Shown piece after piece: positions 8,677 to 58,040 of a stretch of 64,000 nucleotides of DNA. Numbering within the stretch: position 1 is the stretch's first letter; each line of letters opens with the position of its first letter. The notes beneath the pieces were generated by a model. That model was not told where the DNA came from and did no database searches. It was given only the letters and a program-made list of their open reading frames with translations. This DNA is from Salminus brasiliensis (taxonomy: Eukaryota; Chordata; Actinopteri; Characiformes; Bryconidae), in assembly GCF_030463535.1 (NCBI RefSeq), contig NC_132891.1, positions 7,283,122 to 7,347,121 on the forward strand, written 5' to 3'. The position numbers and the translations under genes were made by a program.

Positions 8677-10693
8677 TCAGTCTCTGAGGAGTACATACTC
8701 TTTGACTGACTCTGGCAGTGGTAGCTGTTTCACAGCGGTTGGGAGATACTGCACTCCGAGGCTGTTTCGCACAGCACAGCGGGCCAGGGCTCGCAACAAA
8801 GGCGGCTGGGCCACCATGCCGGTGAGGCGGGCCAGCAGCTGAGGATCTTTGCTGAGCTCGCGGGGCAAAGTGCCATCGGCCCTGCGGATGTCGAACTTCC
8901 CTGCAGCCCGGCACAGAAGCTCCAGGCACTCTTCCTCCTGCTCTGTGCCCAGGCCCCGCGCCAGGAGAGCCACCAGCCGGGAGATGGGCGTCTGGCCCTT
9001 GAGGTTGGTGACGTGAACCTGGGCACCATACTCCAGTAACACGCGCACGCTCTCCAGGTTGCCCTTCATGGCCGCCCAGCTGAGCGGTGTGTCATTGTTG
9101 TAGTCACGTGCATTGGGGCAGGCGCCGCTCTCCAGCAGGGCTCGCACACACTCGGGGTTGTCTTTGAAGGCGGCCCAGTGGAGGGGCGTGTCCTTGTTGC
9201 CGTCCAGTGCGTTGGGGTGAGCTCCATATTCCAAGAGAAGCTCCACGCAGCCTTCGTCCTTCTCTGCGGCGTAGTGTAAAGCTGTGCGGTTATATCCGTC
9301 CAAGGCGTTGACCTGTGTGTAAAACAGAGCGGAGTACGTTACAGGACTATGCAAAAATAAAATAAATAAATAAATAAATAAATAAATATCAATGAAGGAT
9401 CTTCAATGCTAATTTTAAGCTTGTAGGATACACTATATGTCTAAACATTTGTGGACACCCCATCTAACAAACACACATTCAGCTACTTTAAGTTGCACCC
9501 ATTGCTGACACAGATGTGCAAATGCACACACAGCTTGTCTAGCCCTTGCAATAAGGTACTGCTAGTACAACAGGACTCTCTGGAACAAATGAACATGAAC
9601 CTACTGGCACCGTACCTAATGCCAGGCGTGGGCTAGAGGAGTATAAATCCCCTACTATTGAGCTGTAGAGCAGTGGAACTGTGTTCTCTGGAATGATGGT
9701 TGGTGCTCCATCCAGTACTTTTGGGATGAATGCAATCAAATCCTCACTGCAATGTTTCAAAATCTAGTAGAAAACCTTCCCTGGACACTAGAGACAGTTA
9801 CTCCAATAAAAGCAGGATTAGCCCAGCATAATACCCTTGATTTCAGAAGTGCAATACAGAAAGTGGAGTGTGCGATCATTGTGGACCAATTACACAGTGT
9901 GAGGAGTGCTGTTAAGCGCTCACGGCACACGCCACTGTACAAGATGTTGCATTTCTTTGCATTCTGTGTTGAAGTAAACGTTTGGCTTTAGTCAGATATT
10001 CTACAGCGTTTTACCTCTGCACCTTTCTCCAACAAAAGCTCCACACAGTCTGCATCAGCCACCATACAGGCACAGTGTAGAGGCTTCAGGGTGCCATGCA
10101 TCCGGTTCACGTCTGCGCCCTGAAAAGTAAATTACAGTGAACCACTATAACCAGGCAGGCAACATGGTCTGTTAGACAGCATCTCAAAGCTAGGTGTGCA
10201 GCGGACGCAGTTTCCCAGCCACTGCACCACTGAAGGCTGTGCAGGTTTGTAGAATCTGTCCAATACAGCCTTAATTTCTGAACATTGATAACGCAGCTGC
10301 TGCATCTAATTACTTACCATCCTTTTCATTTTGAGAACTATTTGAAATTGCTGTAATAGCTGAAATTCTGCCTACAGCATCAGTGTAGAGTGGAATTGAA
10401 GTTACAGGTATTGTGAATACATCATGTTGACAGCATACAGTGGTACCCATACTGCAGATTTCCGGTCCAGTAGAACAGCTGATTCCACTTATGACGGACC
10501 TGAGCATTAGCTAATGATGAAAAATGTTGTACAGTATAAATAAATACATCTTTATTAAGCTTACCCTGCGTATAAGGTCTTCCACATTATCGTGTGGAAA
10601 TGAGCGAATGGCTGCAATTGTCCGGATGAGCCTTTCCGAAAGGGAGTATTTACTTTGAATACTCTGCATGATGTACCACATAGTCGAGCTCAT
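8677..10693 (-). CDS. asb8: Ankyrin repeat and SOCS box protein 8 (3 coding exons, 289 aa)
   Basis: Substrate-recognition subunit of a cullin-RING E3 ubiquitin ligase: ankyrin repeats bind the target and the SOCS box binds elongin B/C and Cul5 (family knowledge). Coding exons on the minus strand are 10565-10693 (43 codons, start MSSTMWYIMQSIQSKYS), 10015-10119 (35 codons) and 8677-9312 (211 codons plus TGA). All junctions are phase 0 with GT-AG borders. Ankyrin repeats run from about residue 44 to 185 (motifs GADVNRMHGTLKPLHCA, ALDGYNRTALHYAAEKDEG, DTPLHWAAFKDNPECVRAL, NNDTPLSWAAMKGNLESV). The C-terminus ends in a SOCS box (YLPTAVKQLPLPESVKEY). The length, 289 aa, is within one residue of the mammalian protein as I remember it. 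The ATG opens the conserved N-terminus. Exon 2 also holds 5' UTR up to an acceptor after 10731. Nothing looks broken. Confidence 0.96.
9429..9850 (-). mobile_element. CACTATATGG-family element in asb8 intron 2
   Basis: Reverse-oriented copy: TACACTATATGTCTAAACAT at the left, then GGGATGAATGCAATCAAATC and CTTCCCTGGACACTAGAGAC. It matches the internal order of the copy at 42966-43465. The opposite terminus is not clear. Confidence 0.75.
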
Positions 10694-18919: not shown

Positions 18920-34480
<15,561 letters not shown>

Positions 34481-34650
34481 CGGCCGCTCCCTGGCTCTTA
34501 CTCTCGCTGCGTCGCCTCCGTCTTCCTCTCCCCGGCCGGGCCCCCACGTGTGTGTCACCCACCCCCTTTTCTTGATCACTATTCCCAGCTAGCTAAGGAG
34601 TTACTCGGACTAATATAACCGTCACTGCGACCGCGACCGGCGTCCTAACA

Positions 34651-36109
34651 GCCCGGGACGTCCACTTTTAACTTCCCCAGCTGGTTGTGATCGCTAAGCT
34701 AGCGCGCTATGTCGCTACGTCGCTACGTCGCACACTACGAGCTGGCTGGCTAGCTAGCTAGCTCCTCTGCTAACAGGCTAAGCGGGCTGCTCAGTGCATC
34801 GATGATGATGATGATGGTGGTGGTGGTGGTGGTGGTGGTGGTGGCGGCAGCAGCAGCGATGATGATGATGATAATAATACGAAGCAACCAGGCGCGGACG
34901 CGTGCGAACAGCCACGACAACTAGGACAGCGGACGAAAGCACGACAGAGTAGCAGATCCGTCTCTAGCGCGTCTTCCTCTCCAGTAACTCAGGCGCCAGA
35001 GCCATGCGGCGCATTCCTGAAGGGGCAGCCCGAGCGGACACAGCGGACACGCACCTTCTCTCCGAGCGGGCGGACATTAATGCGCTCCGCCACCGTCCCA
35101 GCTTCCCCAGCGACCTCCTCTTGCCCTCTGATGTCTTTCTTTAACATCCGGTTAGCGAAAAAACAAATGGCTAACTGAACCATTTTCTACAGTAAAAGTG
35201 CTGTTTGATGGACGAGGCGTTGTTTTAGGAAAGGATGTTTTGGCCAAGAAATATAAAATATATATTAAAAAAAAAAAATGAGTAAGAGACAGGTGCATAC
35301 AGGGTATTTCAGGGCAAAAAAATAAATAAATAAATAATTGTGTTGTTTCCTGGATTTAATAAGTCATTCTCCTAATTTAATACAACGTTCCCTCGATATA
35401 ATCTATAGTCTATTCCCTCCGTTTAATTAATACAAGCTTTTATTAAATAAAAGCTTAATTAACAGCAATCCCTTTGAACCATGTTCAACTGTCCCTTTTA
35501 CCACATTCACACCACATACATCAACTTAAGAGAATCACATTAAGTGTAGGTGAAATATAATGGCCAAAAACATAAATGCCTGTACGCAGAACAAGATACA
35601 ACCACGTTAATATCTGACTTTAGGCATGATTTAGTCTTGATTTAGTCTCAATTATTTCTTTTAAGAATTGTCTGCACTTGGGTACCGATCCGCAATCCCT
35701 AAATTGCACGTCACTGCCGGTCCAGAGTGTGTTTAAACAGTGAAATCTGGAGCGGCAGCAGTAGGAAACTTTATCAGTAGTCAAATAATTCATGTGGAAG
35801 TTGTTTTGGAGGGCAGGTCATTTAAAATGTGTGAGAAATGGCAAGATTAGAGCTAAGTGCAAGAGTCCGACAGCCAGGGTGTGAAAGTTGGCAGCTCTAA
35901 CAAATGTCAGAACATGTGTGTAGATTCACAGGTGATTTCAGATAGTTACTAACATGGCTATATTACCTTCCTGAACATGGCAAACTCCAGTTCCTATCAA
36001 CATCACTGTAAAGAAATCATCATAGCAAAGTCTGTAAGAGTTTCTACAATGAACCATGTTTACCTTTATCAATTGATTCTGCAGATATTTTGAGGAGGCA
36101 GAAATCCCC
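34651..36109. other. Intergenic region between larp4 and itgb7
   Basis: The left part holds the CpG-rich larp4 upstream sequence with a (GATGAT)/(TGG) triplet run at 34800-34880. The rest is unique AT-rich DNA without exons. Confidence 0.5.
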
Positions 36110-36681
36110 ATTGAGATTATTTTATTAGTCATGTATTACAGCAATCACAGAAATGCCAGATACATTCAGGCAATAGCATGTCTGGGTCTAAAAAATAAAT
36201 TAATCAAATTAAAAAAAGGTAGACAGCAAATATAATTACACTACATACTAATACCCCGGAAATTCTACAGAAATGCAGCTTAGTTATGTTTTTGGAGAGG
36301 GCAATGAAATTCACATTCTTTCTAGTATAATTGAGAAAACTGGGACAGGGCTATAGGCCAGTGTATTGCATGTAGAAAGCTGATATTTAGTTCAGTGATT
36401 TTCTTGCACAACACAATAGGGTTAACCTATCTGTCAATTACCAGGTTTAGTTGCTGTTTGTTTGACAAGGGAAATCGCATAAATCAGCTGGACATATAAG
36501 ACCCAGAACTGGAACTGAATTGTGTTCCACTTTGAAACCAGAGTTGTACTACAAAACGTGACGTAATGTGAAACACGCCTCAGGTTTTTACCCCCACTTG
36601 TTTTAGTTTAGCTTTTTGAAATATTGTTATCAAAATGGTGAATGTTTTTTTAGAAATGTTAGCCTAGCATCCTTCGTTCCT
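36110..36681 (-). other. itgb7: itgb7 3' UTR
   Basis: Sequence downstream of the TAA at 36682-36684 contains a minus-strand AATAAA at about 36121-36126, giving a 3' UTR of about 560 nt. I looked here and on toward 35200 for an exon encoding an integrin tail (HDRRE or NPxY type) and saw none. Confidence 0.45.
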
Positions 36682-39600
36682 TTAAGGCACAATTTGGTAG
36701 TAGATGTTCAGCAGTAATAAGTATGTTAAGATCATAGTGGTTCCCAAAATGACAACTCCTCCTACTCCACTACAGACGATCACTAAGGTCCCAAACATGG
36801 CAGACTGGAAAAGATCTGAAAAGAGAGATCACACATCAGTCAAGGTGTTATGTCGATTATGCTCTTTGTTCAAATCTCATTGGTTCCAGTATTCGCAAGA
36901 TGTCGCACAAGATGTTTGTGTTGTGGCTCACTGTGGTTTTCCCGGTAGAAGATCCGGACGGTCTCACTATTTGATTCCACGTTAAAGAATACCATTTCCT
37001 CATGACATGAAAAGGTTCTTGCATCAGGGGAATGAATGAGCTCAGTAGAGGTACAGGCTTTATCGCAGGTTCTGTTCTCTAATACATTTGACAGTCTACA
37101 CCGAACACAAGCACTGGAGGGGAGAAACAACCAACAGGAAGAAAAAAGATCATTGCTGTTTTAATGGGACAAGGTACCAGTCTGATCTTCCTGATCAAGA
37201 TACAGAATTGGTTTACTCTGTTTATACATGCTCTACCACAAAATCTCATGCAGGCCATGAGGCTTTTTCTTCTATGTCTAGACAACCCGAACACAAGGCT
37301 CTTGGTGTTCTTTCAGGCTTACCCATATTGAAGGCATGGATATAGGGACACGGTGCAGTGCTTGCCTTTGAAACCTGGATGGCAAACGCATTGATTACAT
37401 TCACAGTGCCCATGGTTGCTGCATATGCTACCGTTCCCTGTCTGGCACTCATCTGTGGTGGTAGGACATTCACAGGCAGACCCCTCATAGTTTGGGTGGC
37501 ATTCACAAGTGCCACAGTTACATCGCCCATTTCCTGCCAAGGCAAACAGAAGACAATCAGAGTCAATAGATAAGGTACTCACAGTCCTGAATACATAAAC
37601 TGTGTGTCCAAAAATCACCTGCTTATCCACTAGTTCTTCTGTAAGCAGTATTATTAAAGGACCCTTGCTTTATTGAAATGAAGGAGTTTAAAATCTGGAT
37701 TAAGACCTTGCTTACCACCGCAGATGAGGTTTTTGTGGTGATTGCAGCTGGTGTCATCACACTGGCAGTACTGGCCTCTGTACTGACCGTGGCAAATGCA
37801 GCGTCCACACAGGCAGCTCCCATGACCGCTGCACATGTTTGTGCTGTTAATGGGTGAACATAAAGCATCCATGGACAATATGGAGTCTGCATTCTGCTGC
37901 TTCTCACATTCACACATCTGTCCAACGTAGCCTTCATCACAGCTGTGGATCGAGACACACAAACACCACTTTAACTATTCTAGTAGTACTACTCAAACTA
38001 TTTAAAGTGTTCAGAGATGAAGCCTTATAGTCTCAAAGAATAACCAGCTTGTGTGAAACTATTGTATGGAGCACCATCTTTCCAGAGAACACAGTTCCAC
38101 TGCTCCAATGCTGGGGGGGCTGGCATTAGGCATGGTGCCAATAGGTCCATGTGTATCTGCTCCACAGAGTCCTATTCAATTGGCAATGCTTCTCTACAGG
38201 GACTAAACAACCTGTGTTTGTGCATTTGCACATCTGTGTCAGCAATAGATAGAACTTAAAGAATCTGAATGCATCCGTTAGAAGAGGCATCCACAAAAAA
38301 ATGGAAAAACATTTTTCACAAGACATATAATTCAACAAATCCCACCGTCTCAGACCTTTTAGATATTGTTGCATAGAATTACCTTGGATGACGTGTTTAA
38401 CTTAGACGCCATTCTAAAAAATCAGGAGCTGAGCTTTAAAGATGGTTGAAGGTTTAAAGGAAGACCTGCCTGCAGATGCCACACGTGTACGTTCCATTGC
38501 CATGACAGTCAGGTGACTTCTGTTCAGTGTCGCTGCAATCACAATCACAGATTGTCTCCACCGTCATAGAAAGCTCCTCATTGAGGCCTTGAGGTTTGAT
38601 GATGAAGGATTTGGTGTGGGAGAAACACACTGAACTGCTTACGGTGACTGTGAAATTAATCTGGAAGGGAACAGCAAACTCACAGTTACTGTAGACCCAT
38701 GGCAACTCGAACAGTGTTACTGTTAAAAGTATAAGAACCTTGAGGAACTTTTGGAGGTTCTGTGGAGGAACATTTTGAGATGCTTTGAGGAACTTTCAAG
38801 GAACCTTTTGTCATTTTGTGAACCACTTCAAATAACCTTCAAAGAACCTTCAAAAGTTTCTTATTGATCTTATGTAGTTCATTTACTGTTACATCAGAAC
38901 CTACAAGAAAGCAGATATCCTATCCTGAAAAACTGATTTCAGGAAGGTAGCATCAAGCATCAGGGATTCAGATTGCTTATTTGGAGTAGCCTCATCCATG
39001 CCTTGAGAACTTTGAGAAGGTTTTCTAGCATTATGTTAAAGCTGAGAGCTAAGCAGAGGAACAGCACAAATAGCTGGATCATCCCCCAGCCTCAGAAAAC
39101 AGAAGAGCTGAGTGGATAAAGATTCTTTTTGATGCCAACATCTCAGCTACAGATGACCAACAACAAAAAAAGCTGATGGTCAGGGTGGTTGAAAAGCTGA
39201 TTGTCCAGACATGCTGGTAAGCTAGCTGGTTAATCAACTCCTAACCAGTGTTGTTACGCTTGTTATGCTGGTCATCCAGTGTGGTCACACTCGTCATGCT
39301 TGTCAACCACCGTGGTCGTGCTGGTCAACCGGGTGGGTAATGCTGGTCATGCTGATCAACCAGCATGGTCAAGCTTGGTCAGACTTTTGAACATTTCTTA
39401 AGCTTATTCAGGTTGGTTATGCTTGTAGATCTGCTTAACCATCACCCTCAAACAAAAACATACCCTGTGCTGATCAACAGCTCAGCTGGGCAGGAAGATG
39501 ATAAGACAGCACCCTACTGACCCCAGGAAACAGATAACTTGTGGGTATTATATGTCAGCTTTAAGATTTATCTGAATAAATCATGAAATGTTGCTCTCAG

Positions 39601-42600
39601 TTGTGTTTGTTTATATTTATACAGTAAAATGTGGGGTCAGTTTTGGACAAAATAAAATTCTGAACATATGTTTTTATAATTTTTATGTGTGTAAATGTAT
39701 GGCTTCAGATTTGTTTTTATGTAATTCCTAAAGTTCCTAAAAATTCCTCAGATTATGTAGACGTTTCCTGAAGAACTGTAACTGAACTGAATTGTAAGAT
39801 TTTATTGAATTGATTTTTTACCTGCTGATCAAAGCCAACATTTCTGCACTCTCCTCGTCTCTGGTTGTGACTGTAGGTGCCATCGCTGCACGTTGAGCTG
39901 TAGGTTATGTCCAGCCCTGCTGGAGCTTTGTGATGCTCCAGTATCAACTTGGAAACCAAATCCTACAAGCAGCACAACATGTTTGAGCAATTTTTTCAAG
40001 CTAGCCCATCAAAAACTTATCAACTCAAGACTTGATGATCCCAAGTCCTTTCTAATTAGGTGATTATGAACAGCAGGTCATAAGCCTACTCTGACACAGC
40101 CTGATTTGATTGTTGCTTACATTGTAGGCATCGGAGATGAGCTGCACGACATTACTGGAGTCACTTTCCAAGATGCCCACCACCGACTGGGGAATGACTT
40201 CACTGAGCGCCTGCAAAGACCAGACAATTGACACATCTCTATAAGGCAGGATGTAGATGGAGCTTCTTACTGATGAATAAGGAGTAAATTAGTAATAAAC
40301 GTAATAACCTGGTAGCTCTCCAGAACCTTCTTAGTAATCGCAAATATAATTTTTATATGGTTCTTAGTAAGGGTCTCAGATAGATGGGCTATTGAAGGGT
40401 AGTCCTAAAACACAGCAGAATAAGGTAAGCATTTGCATAATGTGTTTAGTATAACTTAATAAATGTTTAGAAATACAGCTCAGCCCATAAGTATTTGGAC
40501 AGTGACACACGTTTTGTAATGTTGCCTCTCTACCCCACCTCAATGGATTTGAAATGAAACAATCAAGATATAGTGAGTTTTTCTTTCCATTGTCACAGGC
40601 TCAAAAGCAATTGGACAAACTGATATAACCTGGAATCACCTCCAGATCTAGACCATTTACATTTGAGCCTGTAATGAATGTTGTCATTCCTAAACTGTTA
40701 TTGCGATATTTTTCTCTATCCCCTTTAAACTGCAGCTGAAAGTCTGCACTTACATCACATCTTAATTGCTTAAAAATGGTGCCACTGTCCAAATACTTAT
40801 GGACTCATTTGTATGCATTTATACACATCTATACAATCAAAAAAAGGGTATTTGCTGTCTCTCACATGGAGTTCACCCTTTTCATAGAACCCCATTCTGT
40901 TTAGGTGGCACTTCCCATCGTTTGGTGTGACAATACCAGCAAGCCTGCCATCTCCGGCCATGTGGAAGAGATCATCGGAGAGGTACACCAAGATACGGGT
41001 CACATTGCCCCAGCCGATCTCTTTCTGAAGAAAGCAGAAAACTGATGAAGTCACTATGATTTGCATCTAGAAAGCACCATCCCAAAGCTCACTTACTTAA
41101 CATTGCCTTTAAATAGCCTTAATAATGATTGTATAGCTTATTATTTTATTGTATTATAACATTGATTGCAATTTATTATTTTGTATTTTTAGAGCTTTGT
41201 AATACACCACTCAGACATAACATTAACACCACTGGGTGGGATCTACATATCAGGCAGCAAGTGAACAGTTAGGTCTTAAAGGTGAAACATTTTCAGGGGC
41301 CAAATTGTGATTTGTAGATAACTGGGTCAGGACATCTCCAAAAAATCAGGCAGGTCTTGTGTGGTGTTGATGGTATGCAGTGGATAGTACCTATCAAAAG
41401 TGGTTCAAGAAAGGGACCAACTGTGACCTGGCGACAGGGTCCCACCTTACAGTCTACAGTACTGCTAATGTCTTGGTGCCAGATACCACAGGACACCTTC
41501 AGAGCCCTTGTGGAGTAGAGCCCATGCCTTGAATGCTCTGATCTATTGTGGTGGCCCAAGGGGGACCTACTCAATATTAGTCAGGTGGTGTTAATGTTAT
41601 GGCTGATCTGTGTATTTTATGTTATATATAAACTTACTGAGCAATTTATGAGAAAGACTGACTTGTGCATGCAATTATTAAATCAGCCAATCGTGTAGCA
41701 GCAGACAGAGGTCAACAGACAATGACCAGACTGTTTGGAGCTCGGCACAGGTTGAGCCCTGAATACAATCAAACGAATCAAAGGAGACCCTACGCAGCAT
41801 TAGCACAGTCTTCTTAATACATTGTTTTTGAACTTTCCTTTTTACCTCACATACAGCAACCTGCATTACACCATCAAAGCCAGACTCAGGCAAATCTTCG
41901 TTCGTTGAGATGTATTGCTTGCTGACCTCTGTCTCAAAGTCCTCCATGTTGTCAGTGAGCTTCAGAACGTGCTGGAAGCTGAACGATGGCTGACATTTGT
42001 GCTGGTGGCAGGGTTCTGCCAGTTTGTCTGCTTTTGTATTGACATAAGGCATTTTACGTTTTTCCACAAAAGCCCCAAAACCTGCAAGTAGGCAAAGGAA
42101 GTGAGTTATTTTGCTTAGTGATTTTTTAACAATAACGTTTCTCAGCATTTCATGATGGAAATGTGCCTGATTTATCCAAATGGCTCGTTTTCACCCGCTG
42201 TTCCATAATACCAGTGATAATAACCAGTGATAATACAGTTAAAACATAGATATTGAGCGTCTGAGGATTAAAAAAAAAAACAACACTTCCTCCTCCTATG
42301 ACCCGTCACACCGTGACCCAGAATGCTCTCAATTTAAAACGCACCAATCCTGGCAGCATGAGTGACGTTCCTTAAAGCAGACATGACTTTATAGCCCAGT
42401 TTCTTCACATTCTCCAAGTCGTCTCTCATGGAAAATGAAAGATCCATAAGGAAGTACAGGTCGATGGGGTAACCCTCTGCTCTTTTGAAGGCCACCTCAA
42501 ATGTTTGGGGAACACCTTAAAAACAGAAGAAACACAAGAGTAAATGAGGTATGATGTAACCTAGGCCTTTAGTGATTAAGCAGAACACCCTCCCCCCGCC

Positions 42601-44654
42601 CTTTAACAGTGCAAATACAAAACAAGCGGCCATATTGAACAGGACTGGGTGACGGGGGCCGGAGTCCAGCACACTTTACTGCTTTCGGTCAAACACACCT
42701 ACTAAACCCGACAATTAAGAGGTGAGTTGAATCAGGTGAACTTCAGCAGCAAAATCACAAAACTATGAGGGGATTCCAGCCCTCCAGGACCAGATTTGCC
42801 ACCCTGATGTTGTCTGCACTTTTTTAAAAGAGTTTACTGTAGTATGTACTGTAAAGCTACACAGTACTGTAAAAAGCCCAATTCACACACTCATCCACTG
42901 TCCATCAAGACTATTCTATGTATAATACTGATTGTTTTTGTGATTGCACACATTTACAGTACATACACTACATGGACAAAAGTATTGGGACACCTGCTAA
43001 TTTTTTTTCCCCTTCCAAAAACTAGGGATTTGTTTTGAATTGTTGGAGTAATGTCTCTACTGTCCAGAGAAGACTTTCTACTACATTTTGGTACATTGCT
43101 GTAAAGATTTGATTGAATGCAGTGACAAGAGTGTTAGTGAGGTCAGGATTTTGAATGTTTACCACCCCACCAACTCACCCTAAGTATTGGATGTATCATC
43201 ATTATTCAAGAGAAACACAATTTCACTGATCCACAGCTTAATGCTGCGGTTCTTTATACCCCTCTAGCCTAGCATTAGGCAATAGGTGACAAGAGGTTTA
43301 TGTTTATCTGCTCCAAAGAGTCCTATTCTATTGGCAATATATCTCTACAGAGACTAGGCAAGCGGTGTGTGGACATTTACACATCTGTGTCAGCAATAGG
43401 TGAAACTTAAAGTAGCTGAATGCATTCATTAGAAGGGGTGTCCACAAACATTTGGATTTATAGTGTATATTTGTCTATTCCACTCACAGAATTTCAGCTC
43501 TGTCCATTTCCCCTAAGCTTATTACGAGTATTTTAGCCAAGACTGCACAACATGCCCTGGTAGCCAATCACGAAGAGCTTATTTACATAGATCATTCTCA
43601 AAGATGCAGAAACAAAAACCTCCTGCTTAATTCTAAGAGGTAAAGAGGAAGGTAATGGTTATGTAAGTTATGGCTGTATCTGGTACATAAAACCACACGA
43701 GCATCACAAGTGCAATGCAATAAAATACAGCACCTTTAGGTTTAAGTGACTACTTACAAATGACACTCTTAAAAGATTGAGCACTTGGACCATGATAATG
43801 AACTGGCTGCAGGGAAAGTGAAGGTGAAGCACGTACCCACTCTGAGCTTGAGATGGATCTTCTGTGGTCGAAGCTGGACCACATTCTCCAAACTGCTGCC
43901 GAGCCCTTTGTCCATAATTCTCTGGGCATTAGGTGTAGGATCAGTGATCGCTGAACAGTTCCTTCTCCTTAGACCCTCTGCAGTATCACAACGCCTGTGA
44001 TCAGGCTGTCCAGGACTCAGAAAGCCCTTTTATCAAAGCGCACACAAACGCACACTCATTAGGATAGTCTACTAATTTTATGTTGCATCCACCCTAAACT
44101 AGCTAAACGTTTTAGTCCCCTGTGAAAAAAATAGTATTAAAAATCCCCTTGTCATGCAGCTTTGCCATCAGCGGCCAGAGTCTGAGAGAGCACAACTGGC
44201 CGTGCTCTCTACAGGTGGGTAGATGGCGCTCTATCCCCTCATCACTCTCATAGTGATGCATAGTGCAGTGGCTGAGATGGGGAACCACCACTTTCGTCCG
44301 AGCAGTTTGGCTGCCTGGCAATGTTCGAAAAAGATGTGTGGCTGCCTTTGCATGTATCAGAGAAGACATATTAGAAGCATTGCAAGTGCTAGGGGGAACT
44401 ACGAACAGGTGGGTTAATTGACAGTACTAAATTGGGGGAAAAAATAAAAATTCTGACAAACAAAGAAAGAAAAAAAGTAAAAAAGTAAAAATATTAATAT
44501 TATAATAAACATTGCTACATAAAGGTGTGGTTCTACATCACTGTGTATATTAAAACCTTTCCAAAGCTCTTCTCATGGGAGTCTAGTATTATTTGTTGTG
44601 ATTATCCAACACCTGGTTTGGTAAATCAGGGCTTAATGATGGTAAATTAGGTGA

Positions 44655-44685
<31 letters not shown>

Positions 44686-45122
44686 ATGGAGTTGAACACA
44701 TCCTCCACGCTGTGCTGGCTGGACTGGGGGGCAGCCAGTAGAAACCTGGAGGAACCAAGCTCTGTTCTTCAGACTAGCTCACCGACAAGATCTCACCTAC
44801 TTTCTTCAGAATTGTTCCTTTTTTTACTGGATTTACTTTTACCTGCCTCTGTTTTAATATGATGTGAAGATTTTGCTGTAAAACTCTCTTAATGCTAAGA
44901 GAAATAGTGGTGTATAGAAATGGTACAAAATTGTTAAACTCTTGTTAAAGTTAAGAACATTTGAGGCTCTATCATGGTACCAGAAAAGCTCCATAACCAA
45001 ACATGGGACATTCAGCCGCTCACCCTCTGTTTACACCAAGCACAGCCAGTGTGCTGCACACACTCCGAGCAGGTGGATTTGGATGAGCACTGGCCTTCAG
45101 TGCCTAGAAAATGTTCTTAGTT

Positions 45123-45188
<66 letters not shown>

Positions 45189-45480
45189 AAAGAATGTAGA
45201 TCATTTATTTCACACACCAGTGAGATATGCTTTGTCACCACTTTTTCTGCCATAAATCTTGATAAAAAAGTATTTATAGAATATTTGAATATATTAAAAT
45301 ACAACTGGCTGACATTTAAAATCATGTTAATCCAAAGCACCTTATTAACAGATATATAATGTCTATAATGTACTGAAATGAGGACATGAGGATTAAGACA
45401 CATTCTGACATTTAGAGCTACTCACCATGAAGAATAATGCAAAGCATGAATACAGTTGTGGAGATCTCTCGCCTCAACAT
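36682..45480 (-). CDS. itgb7: Integrin beta-7-type subunit lacking a cytoplasmic tail (14 coding exons, 720 aa)
   Basis: Cell-surface adhesion receptor subunit that pairs with an alpha chain. Exons: 45426-45480, 45024-45103, 43837-44026, 42345-42515, 41846-42081, 40866-41024, 40309-40404, 40121-40210, 39822-39962, 38470-38660, 37716-37942, 37323-37533, 36932-37113, 36682-36815 (TAA). They total 2163 nt with consistent phases. Order: signal peptide (about 1-19); PSI domain ([15 protein letters not shown]); betaI domain with an intact MIDAS/ADMIDAS motif (DLSFSMRDD, about 133-141) and the DLPE loop; Cys-rich EGF modules; beta-tail; one membrane segment. [27 protein letters not shown] and [12 protein letters not shown] resemble human beta-7 more than beta-1 or beta-2. 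The frame stops 8-10 residues after the membrane segment ([12 protein letters not shown]), so the HDRREF-like and NPxY motifs are absent. The integrin beta call is near certain; the beta-7 assignment less so. Confidence 0.88.
38055..38310 (+). mobile_element. CACTATATGG-family element fragment in itgb7 intron
   Basis: Contains CCAGAGAACACAGTTCCACT, GGCATTAGGCATGGTGCCAA and the right-hand block with CAATGCTTCTCTACAGGGAC. It lies in the intron between exons 38470-38660 and 37716-37942. The left end is missing. Confidence 0.75.
38700..38890. repeat. Low-complexity AGAACCTT/AAGGTTC repeat
   Basis: Short diverged repeats around AGGAACTTT and AAGAACCTT follow directly after itgb7 exon 38470-38660. 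No terminal structure is visible. Confidence 0.55.
39195..39435. repeat. Degenerate GCTGGTCA minisatellite in itgb7 intron
   Basis: Repeated words GCTGGTCATGCTG, GTCAACCAGCATGGTC and GCTTGTCAACCACCGTGGTC form a diverged tandem array with internal dyad symmetry (GCTGGT versus ACCAGC). Confidence 0.8.
41206..41617 (+). mobile_element. Degenerate Tc1-like element in itgb7 intron
   Basis: The inverted ends are CAGACATAACATTAACACCA and, at the right, GGTGGTGTTAATGTTATGGC. Near 41478-41515 a remnant of the Tc1 transposase C-terminus is readable ([14 protein letters not shown] followed by a stop). It is internally deleted and non-functional. Confidence 0.85.
42655..42802. mobile_element. Possible MITE in itgb7 intron 3
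   Basis: GGGGCCGGAGTCCAGCAC at the left and CCAGCCCTCCAGGACCAG at the right resemble the ends of small fold-back elements common in fish introns. No clear target duplication was seen. Confidence 0.4.
42966..43465 (+). mobile_element. CACTATATGG-family element, full-length 500-bp copy
   Basis: It starts CACTACATGGACAAAAGTAT and ends GGATTTATAGTG, flanked by TA on both sides (42964-42965 and 43466-43467). The inverted ends are about 30 bp and imperfect. It has no coding capacity. The TA duplication suggests a Tc1/mariner-type origin; this copy is my reference for the other members. Confidence 0.85.
44140..44450 (+). mobile_element. tRNA-derived SINE, family 2, in itgb7 intron 2
   Basis: Shares GAGAGCACAACTGGCCGTGC, TCTACAGGTGGGTAGATGGC and TTTGGCTGCCTGGCAATG with the copy at 3190-3560. 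Confidence 0.7.
45125..45184. repeat. (CA)n microsatellite in itgb7 intron 1
   Basis: About 60 bp of pure CA, some 20 nt upstream of the acceptor for exon 45024-45103 on the transcribed strand. Confidence 0.95.
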
Positions 45481-45699
45481 CGCCCAGAAACAAGAGTCAA
45501 TTCAGTCAAGTTTAGTTAATTTAGTTTTAGTAAAATAAAAAATAACCATTTATGAAAGTAGTTCCTGACGAAAAATAGAGCGGCACAAAGCACTTGCAAC
45601 CTAATGTTGAATCAAAACTTTAAGTTCCCTTTTGTGCAGGCAAAGGTATAACAGCTTGATATGGTAGAATAGTCAAGGCACACCCAGCACTGACTGTCC

Positions 45700-45742
45700 T
45701 TCTGTGCTCGGACACGCTCAGTTTTGCATTTCTTTTATAGAG
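45700..45742 (-). promoter_or_regulatory. itgb7: TATA box and inferred start of itgb7
   Basis: The minus strand reads CTCTATAAAAGAA, placing TATAAA at 45734-45739. A start some 30 nt downstream, near 45705, would give about a 225-nt 5' UTR before the ATG at 45478-45480. Purine-rich GAGGAA/AAGGAA words just upstream (45748-45790) resemble ETS/PU.1 sites, which would suit leukocyte expression. That last point is inference. Confidence 0.5.
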
Positions 45743-46064
45743 AAAAACAGAGGAACCCAGAGTGAGAGATATAAGTAAAGGAAAGGAAAAAAGAAGTGTG
45801 TTTGTATTAAGTCTTAATATTTGATTGTTTATATTTACTACACTATATTGTTTTTATTTTTATAAGCAGTTTAGGTTTCAGTTCCTTTAAACTCAAGAAT
45901 CAGCACTCTTCCACATGACTGGCATATTCAACTCAGTGGGCATGGTGGGTGTCTGTTTATAATTAACAAACAAAATGTCTTTGTTCAACAATTACTTTCA
46001 ATTTAAGCATTATATATTAATAAACCTTACATGAACCATAATTGCATTGTAATATGGTGTGGTT

Positions 46065-46310
46065 GTAAAATGGTGCGGTTGGTGTGGCACAATGGATACC
46101 ACCACTAGCTGCCAGTAAACTACCACACTATGTGGAAAGCTGTGGGTTTGATTCCTGGTCTGGGTAACTTTGCTGCTCTACACCAATAAGAGTCCTTGGG
46201 CAGGACTCCTAACCCTGCACTAGCTCACCTCTGTAATTCAGGCATCCTTCTCCTACTCTAAGTTACTCTAAATAAGAGCTTCAGCTAAATGCCATGGATG
46301 TAAATGTAAC
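46065..46310 (+). mobile_element. tRNA-derived SINE, family 3
   Basis: An A-box-like TGGCACAATGGATACC and a B-box-like GGTTTGATTCC lie on the plus strand, followed by CCTTGGGCAGGACTCCTAAC and a tail with CTTCAGCTAAATGCCATGGA. Confidence 0.75.
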
Positions 46311-46394
46311 TTTGATAGCTAGTGCTATCTTTAGGTGGCACCACATGTCCTAAACCATTGCTAGCTATATTTAAAATACATTATATCAACATAT

Positions 46395-46671
46395 AAAAGT
46401 TTATTTGTGCTTTTCTTTTCCAATTTTAAATTGCCAATTACCCAGCTCTCTTGTTAATGCTCTCCCCGTATCACATGTAATGTTCCAGACACAGGGAGCC
46501 TGAGGACTGAAACATGCCTCCTCTGACACATCCGTAACCAGCCACCGCCTGCTTTTGAACCGCACCGATCATCGGGCAACCAAAGAGCCCAGAGGAAAGC
46601 ACCGGTACCCAGCTCTGATGCATTGACTAGCAGATGCCCATATCAGCCAGCATCACACTTGAAGTGATGTG

Positions 46672-46734
<63 letters not shown>

Positions 46735-46860
46735 CTACCCACCTGGAGAGAGCAAGGCCAATTGTGTTCTTTCAGGCTCCGGCTGCTGATGGATTTGAAG
46801 CAGGGCACTTTCGGACATAATGGCAGCACCTTAGTCTGCTGGGCCACTCAGAGCCCTTAT
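46395..46860 (-). mobile_element. tRNA-derived SINE, family 2, split by (GA)n
   Basis: Reverse-oriented copy with CCGGTACCCAGCTCTGATG and ACCTGGAGAGAGCAAGGCCA. A 56-bp (GA)n expansion occupies 46675-46730 at the point where other copies read CTCTCTCT. Confidence 0.75.
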
Positions 46861-46944
46861 TTGTGCTTTTCATATATTTGGGACTGTCATTTGGTATAAA
46901 GCTGCTGTTATATGAAGCATTAAACTGTGGGGGTGGACACTGGC

Positions 46945-47110
46945 GGCTGAAAAGTTAGAACACTTGGTTATTGCTCATATGATTGTGGGTTCAATACACC
47001 AGTCTATTGATCTTTCACTGAGCAAGACCCCTTACTCTTTCTGTGCTTGTGCACTTCCTAAACCTGGCATATGCAAACTGGGCAACCGAGGACTAATGTT
47101 TAGAGAAGCG
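46945..47110 (+). mobile_element. tRNA-like SINE fragment
   Basis: GTGGGTTCAATACACCAGTC (B-box-like) followed by CACTGAGCAAGACCCCTTAC resembles tRNA-derived SINE heads. The rest is diverged. Confidence 0.5.
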
Positions 47111-47454
47111 GGCTTGGGTTATTTGGCTTCATTTATCTAGGAGCCATCTTTGTGAAATACCCCTCTATGTTCTTAATGTATTGGAAACCATAACTACACA
47201 ACCATAAAAGGCCTGGAATGGCTCGACCAGTCTGCATTATTTTCCATGTAATTACTGAATAATAATAATCTTTACATATATACAGTAATAAGAGTCTCAC
47301 ACAGCTACAAATACTGCAATTCTACCTTTCCCTTCGTCCTGTGTCTCAGCTGAGATCAGCTCACAAACTGAAATAACCAAATAAAACACAAAGATACTTC
47401 TGATTTAGGAACTTTAGTTTATTTTAGAACTGATTTCAATATATAGTGGTAACT

Positions 47455-47646
47455 GCTGATAACAGGTTCAGGGTTTATTATAGAGTCCAATGAGAGAAAA
47501 CAACCAAATGAAAGGTCAATAAAGGAAAGGAGCAACAGAATGAGGACAATGAACAGGACAGACGATCGACCTGAGAGGGACTGGATGTGCGGTCAGGTTT
47601 CCACATTAACCCCTTCACCCTTCTCAGGCCACAATTTACTTTAAAT
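47455..47646 (-). other. pfkm: pfkm 3' UTR and polyadenylation signal
   Basis: The stop TAA is at 47647-47649. A minus-strand AATAAA lies at 47474-47479 and a second near 47418, so the shortest 3' UTR would be about 190 nt. The end point is inferred from the hexamer only. Confidence 0.5.

Positions 47647-58040
<10,394 letters not shown>

Follow-up and report, generated by a model that had tools for sequence, protein, structure and literature searches.

A probable membrane-anchored integrin beta chain without a cytoplasmic tail, encoded by a second beta-7-type gene of Salminus brasiliensis

Integrin activation is usually explained from inside the cell, by talin and kindlin acting on the cytoplasmic tail of the beta chain. 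A stretch of 64,000 nucleotides of the Salminus brasiliensis genome (C14:7283122-7347121, called hereafter the window) carries an integrin beta gene in which no such tail was recognised, and the question is whether this gene encodes a genuine receptor chain, is falling into decay, or is completed in some way that its last exon does not reveal. The genome searched comprised 1.07 Gb in 103 contigs. On balance, the gene is more likely than not a real second itgb7, whose product would be membrane-anchored, ligand-competent and unable to recruit talin or kindlin.

The gene was read on the minus strand, from 45480 to 36682. Its 14 exons join into 2,142 nt, that is 713 codons plus a stop, with consistent phases and no inner stop. 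Exon 1 (45426..45480), part of the spliced model and followed by a GT donor, encodes a signal peptide as judged by eye. Exon 2 (45024..45103) encodes the first part of the PSI domain, and exon 3 (43837..44005) the PSI/hybrid portion, where a 7-residue loop of the sister gene on contig C7 (see below) is absent. The beta-I domain starts in exon 4 (42345..42515, with the MIDAS/ADMIDAS motif DLSFSMRDD), continues through exon 5 (41846..42081, with the metal-site segment NEDLPE), exon 6 (40866..41024, with the MIDAS Asp in LSDD) and exon 7 (40309..40404), and ends in exon 8 (40121..40210). The second part of the hybrid domain follows in exon 9 (39822..39962), hybrid/I-EGF1 in exon 10 (38470..38660), I-EGF modules in exons 11 (37716..37942) and 12 (37323..37533), the putative beta-tail domain in exon 13 (36932..37113), and the membrane helix with the TAA stop in exon 14 (36682..36815). 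The span 36682-36932 singled out by the original prediction thus consists of exon 14, intron 13 (116 nt) and the final base of exon 13. A candidate poly(A) signal, AATAAA, was read from the sequence at 36121..36126 (minus strand), about 560 nt past the stop.

Twelve of the 13 introns are of the GT-AG type. The exception, intron 10, was passed over in the original prediction of a fully open, in-phase 14-exon model, of which the phases, the 713 codons and the absence of inner stops are otherwise as described. Exon 10 ends in CAG and is followed by GCAGGT, with the GC at 38469. Since the C7 sister has GT at the same place, intron 10 was read as a GC-AG intron; from the sequence, the GT four bases further, joined to the same acceptor, would stop the frame after one extra codon. 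The donor of intron 7, GTTATT, appears weak by eye.

Intron 13 deserves separate mention, because the frame remains open into it and ends ahead of the membrane exon (ORF 37160-36870), so that its retention would make the main product a secreted ectodomain. The truncated beta-1 paralogues of zebrafish are possibly secreted according to their authors (PMC1538996). However, a GTGAGC donor and, behind a pyrimidine-rich stretch, a CAG acceptor mark the ends of intron 13, and exon 14 still codes for a homologous membrane helix. A mainly secreted chain is therefore highly improbable.

Residues of the metal sites were kept: DLSFSMRDD (residues 126-134), NEDLPE (219-224) and D254. Over 11 positions that we take to form the MIDAS, ADMIDAS and SyMBS sites, the sole change was E165, an Asp in human beta-7, and Glu is also found at this position in the beta-1 row from C5 of the alignment. 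The ligand-binding site, predicted to be intact, is thus intact but for this one D to E replacement. Pfam PF00362 (Integrin_beta) matched residues 114-357 of the window protein with 337 bits. The PSI domain, the hybrid domain and four Cys-rich I-EGF modules were recognised from alignment to human beta-7 and beta-2, from EGF_integrin and I-EGF_1 matches and from the pattern of cysteines. The beta-tail domain was aligned to that of human beta-7 by homology; its Pfam profile, PF07965, gave no match on C14 (genome scan, E<=1) or in the spliced protein (E<=0.01), and missed the C7 protein too. Among the 54 Cys of the window protein, 52 align with Cys of the C7 sister, the other two belonging to the signal peptide and the membrane helix, respectively. 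Two Cys of the human beta-7 ALCDQCPGC segment, which would fall in exon 12, are absent from both fish copies in HMMER alignments.

The best PDB match of the window protein was human beta-7 (8zjf_B; 591 bits, residues 22-708), followed by beta-2 (582 bits) and beta-1 (567 bits). The C7 sister gene (C7:28.9547-28.9680 Mb, minus strand; 733 codons assembled from exon 2 on) is most similar to human beta-7 as well, with 718 bits versus 608 for beta-1 and 577 for beta-2. It ends in YDLREYRSFIKAQEQTDWKE plus TQNPLFQGATTTVLNPLHTQDC, with the tail motifs YDLREY, NPLF and NPLH. The two fish proteins share 49% identity over 687 aligned columns, and their exon patterns are alike from exon 2 to exon 14. 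They form a pair in the tree with support of 99.6/99, and of 99/99 in a tree of the headpiece, 7 of the 11 rows being built from matched pieces that cover 342-540 of 713 columns. Human beta-7 and human beta-2 were not separated from each other in the tree. The description of the gene as beta-7-type agrees with its being sister to a clear beta-7 gene and having a muscle-type PFK next door.

Three further features of the C7 region were observed. The second tail motif of C7 itgb7 is NPLH in place of NPxY/F, so the kindlin site of this copy may be altered as well. Downstream of the gene lie three extra copies of the membrane and tail exons, about 10 kb apart (C7:28.923, 28.934 and 28.944 Mb). For the one that was read, identity is 86% over 1,180 columns, in an alignment starting 7 nt inside the membrane exon. 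They were rejected as full genes, since headpiece and EGF/beta-tail queries match one C7 gene only. A protein-kinase ORF (180 bits) is also found downstream of the main C7 gene, on the opposite strand.

Both integrin genes have the same neighbours. A PFK gene lies directly upstream of each, on the same strand; typed on the window copy only, its pieces score 544 bits with the muscle type versus 515 with the platelet and 498 with the liver type. Downstream of each, again on the same strand, is a gene carrying a Pfam La domain (56 bits), on the strength of which we take it to be LARP4-like; it is located at C14:7.307 Mb, about 12 kb away, and at C7:28.882 Mb, about 72 kb away. The window further contains, at 8680-9402 (minus strand), a gene with ankyrin repeats and a SOCS box, presumably ASB8-like given its Ank and SOCS_box domains, for which no C7 match was found at E<=1e-10 (131 of 229 candidates scored). 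Human ITGB7 is located at 12q13.13, and we assume human 12q13 to be the neighbourhood of PFKM, LARP4 and ASB8 also. If these locations of the neighbours hold, the window integrin lies among genes of the types expected for a member of the beta-7 subfamily. Because three genes have identical order and orientation on two chromosomes, the window and C7 genes are duplicates of one itgb7, within a duplicated LARP4-ITGB7-PFK block. Most simply, we infer, the duplication was that of the teleost genome. The copies share their neighbours, the pattern of exons 2-14 and the absence of the two Cys, and differ in that the C7 gene has a tail: the window copy lost it after the duplication and the C7 copy kept it.

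Searching the genome with the window protein gave at least 66 matches (63 of 101 candidates scored), which fall in at least 11 beta-gene-like places: C14, C7, C5, C27 (two), C8 (two), C12, C26, C17 and C3. A further match on C11 concerns EGF only. Of the ten places inspected for a cytoplasmic tail, which were all those other than C3, nine have one and C14 does not. Pfam PF08725 detected seven of these tails; the other two belong to C7 and to a beta-2-like gene at C8:11.80 Mb. The genome-wide Pfam tail scan, which missed the latter two, is thus not fully sensitive, and for this reason direct scans were given more weight. Another beta gene of the genome has a modified metal site: the second of two adjoining beta-1-like genes at C27:12.759-12.774 Mb reads DLSDSMTQDL, keeping the MIDAS DxSxS but with Gln for the first ADMIDAS Asp, and its tail is present. 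The ADMIDAS is likewise changed in zebrafish beta1-3.

How far does the window chain extend into and beyond the membrane? Homology and hydropathy both support one membrane helix close to the C terminus, and the membrane helix of C7, used as a query, matched window 36789-36700 (E=0.001). The resemblance to human ITGB7 (8zjf_B) includes this helix up to EIY/NIY; where human beta-7 continues with DRREYSRFEKE, the window chain stops. The stop is four residues past IYY, which aligns with IYD of human beta-7, and by alignment the helix would be kept up to the position of beta3 H722, plus five residues. The basic residue of human beta-7 AYRLS is Leu in the window chain. In the alignment to the C7 sister IYKVLLELYDLREY, the K is replaced by Leu and the D by Tyr, so that neither the snorkelling residue nor the inner-clasp Asp remains. 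No Lys, Arg, Asp, Glu or His is found beyond residue 669 of 713.

An uncharged hydrophobic segment running to the C terminus is the classic layout of a GPI-attachment signal, and the window chain has one, with small residues (CSG, GVG) ahead of its last hydrophobic stretch. It could accordingly be a lipid-anchored integrin beta chain. Against this, the segment comprises about 37 near-continuously hydrophobic residues, which is long for a GPI signal. It is close to a normal integrin helix, that of beta3 (I693-H722) counting 30 membrane-embedded residues (PMC8569584). Support for a lipid-anchored beta chain was not found in the open-licence PMC literature, and we regard this alternative as improbable.

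The tail itself had been predicted to be missing, also within about 1.4 kb downstream of the stop. This held over a longer distance: N[PA]x[YF] and HDRRE-like motifs were absent from all three minus-strand frames between 36815 and 33000 (stretch past the stop, 33000..36681), whereas the same scan of C7, the positive control, gave one match per tail-coding exon, two in all (YDLRE and NPLF). Similarly, Pfam Integrin_b_cyt (PF08725) was not detected in the window protein at E<=0.01 and scored 57 bits in the C7 sister. Since the tail feature is found in that sister, the window chain is a homologue of the integrin beta family without a cytoplasmic tail. A genome-wide search with the C7 tail (E<=10) gave nine matches, eight on C7, one on C8 and none on C14. 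Tail and cytoplasmic segments taken from C7 and from the beta-2-like gene of C8 were also searched for throughout the window; the best match (C7 tail, 10234-10193, far from the integrin gene) had an E of 0.06 versus 0.016 for the reversed control, hence no signal either way. A nucleotide search for remnants of tail exons carries no weight, since it did not recover even the TM exon that served as its positive control (P 0.26, 300 shuffles).

These results bear on the possibility that a tail is present via an unrecognised exon, exon 14 being bypassed or spliced at a donor within it. The failure of the Pfam genome search to detect the tails of C7 and C8:11.80 Mb leaves some room for it. The motif scan, however, recovered the C7 motifs and nothing in any minus-strand frame of 36815-33000, and the C7 tail had no counterpart on C14 even at E<=10. 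Moreover, a GC-rich ORF lies about 2 kb downstream of the window integrin and may be the first exon of the next gene. A hidden tail is therefore very improbable. Reading the TAA as a sequencing error is also weakened, as no tail motif is restored downstream when the TAA is ignored. An insertion of a transposon at the stop was considered and rejected: when the 1,501 bases of 36700-35200 were compared with the genome, 40 of 151 candidates were scored, and all of these but the stretch itself lie in a repeat about 780 bases past the stop. This dispersed repeat (35709-35898, minus strand) has at least 39 other genomic copies, 67-93% identical. Rfam gave no match at the gathering threshold in window 30000-48000.

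A tail-less duplicate may be a gene under selection or one at the start of decay. The latter, the main rival of the preferred reading, supposes that the tail was lost and constraint is fading, other lesions having not yet accumulated or lying in regulation or splicing. Besides the loss of the tail itself, the GC donor of intron 10, where C7 has GT, and the weak donor of intron 7 speak for it. On the other side, the 713 codons contain no stop or frameshift, and the metal sites are kept. Of single substitutions, 4.5% create a stop; assuming equal substitution rates and ignoring indels, the chance that an unconstrained frame would be stop-free is 0.055 at 3% neutral divergence, so decay, if any, must be recent.

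Divergence between the two copies was estimated over 644 ectodomain codons (pS 0.69, pN 0.34; dS 1.85, which is near saturation, dN 0.456). This comparison shows past constraint on the pair; it is not a demonstration of present constraint on the window copy. The branch leading to the window copy is shorter than that of C7 for the ectodomain (0.468 vs 0.674) and about equal for the headpiece (0.440 vs 0.430). With human beta-7 as the outgroup, 73 private changes were counted in the window ectodomain versus 50 in C7; for the beta-I domain the counts were 34 and 11 (chi2 11.8). Restricting the comparison to the 306 columns with the same residue in human beta-7 and beta-2 gave 29 versus 15, of which 16 versus 5 in beta-I. 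No excess was observed with human beta-2 (48 in the window vs 58 in C7; beta-I 20 vs 17) or fish beta-1 (43 vs 59; beta-I 17 vs 22) as outgroups. At 134 outgroup-invariant columns, the window copy keeps 118 and departs at 16, and C7 keeps 122 and departs at 12. The outcome of the relative-rate comparison thus depends on the outgroup chosen.

Read from these alignments, the beta-I domain appears to have drifted from beta-7-type residues more in the window copy than in C7, a drift compatible with a changed use of ligand as well as with mild relaxation. The argument of the original prediction, that extracellular conservation speaks against long neutrality, is consequently supported in part: the branch lengths speak for it, the beta-I private changes counted with human beta-7 against it. 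For the decay alternative, these beta-I changes (34 vs 11, and 16 vs 5 at the columns shared by beta-7 and beta-2) count in favour, and the shorter ectodomain branch counts against. Taken with the open frame and intact metal sites, we consider decay possible, though unlikely.

The window gene should be compared with the truncated beta-1 paralogues of zebrafish, beta1tr-1/2/3. These keep their Cys but end four residues past EGF-4, so that beta-tail domain and membrane helix are missing, and their ADMIDAS is mutated (PMC1538996); their authors speculate on non-signalling or antagonist roles. The window chain resembles them as a duplicate beta chain of a fish that would be non-signalling, but its ADMIDAS is intact and its membrane helix is kept. 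As stop position, ADMIDAS and lineage all differ, it was rejected as a truncated beta-1 paralogue of the zebrafish type. An engineered beta3 chain cut after H722 terminates at a membrane-proximal site very close to the end of the window chain (PMC8569584); that chain is artificial and retains K716, whereas the window chain has Leu there. In a survey of 2011, zebrafish has one ITB7 entry, 661 residues long and located on chromosome 6 (PMC4030831). Searches of the open-licence PMC literature found no fish beta-7 described as anchored in the membrane but lacking a tail.

If the window gene is the real, membrane-anchored second itgb7 that we favour, its product would fold and pair with an alpha chain of the kind used by beta-7, either alpha-4 or a fish alpha-E-like chain, the pairing with alpha-4 being suggested by the beta-7 class of the gene. 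The chain would reach the surface by means of its uncharged membrane helix, would bind ligand through the intact metal site, and would be unable to bind talin, kindlin or filamin. Signalling, if any, would go through the tail of the partner alpha chain. Studies of other integrins offer a guide to its resting state. For alphaIIb-beta3, one paper describes K716-H722 as the minimum needed for the resting state, and reports that beta3 truncated after H722 fails to bind the talin head and that K716A/C activates (PMC8569584). Since a change of the basic residue loosens the resting state of alphaIIb-beta3, a receptor that is ligand-ready by default yet uncoupled would be the likeliest outcome, a sink that competes for alpha chains and ligand with the copy of beta-7 that has a tail. 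A decoy or dominant-negative function, as suggested in the original prediction, is at this stage hypothetical. Beta-1 integrins respond differently: charge reversal of the snorkelling lysine lowered adhesion to collagen, in a report that also cites activation of alpha5-beta1 and a knock-in that disrupted the inner clasp of beta-1 and had no phenotype (PMC5207772). The predicted affinity state is insecure for this reason.

It is tempting to go one step further and propose that the second fish beta-7 is conserved as a naturally uncoupled, ligand-ready anchored integrin, a built-in competitor of the tail-bearing beta-7 on leukocytes. This extended proposal is doubtful. Should the gene be decaying, it would represent an ordinary loss after duplication. 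If it is real, it would provide a natural test of an integrin without inside-out signalling, beside a tail-bearing duplicate in one genome, and a test of whether duplicates can evolve into antagonists.
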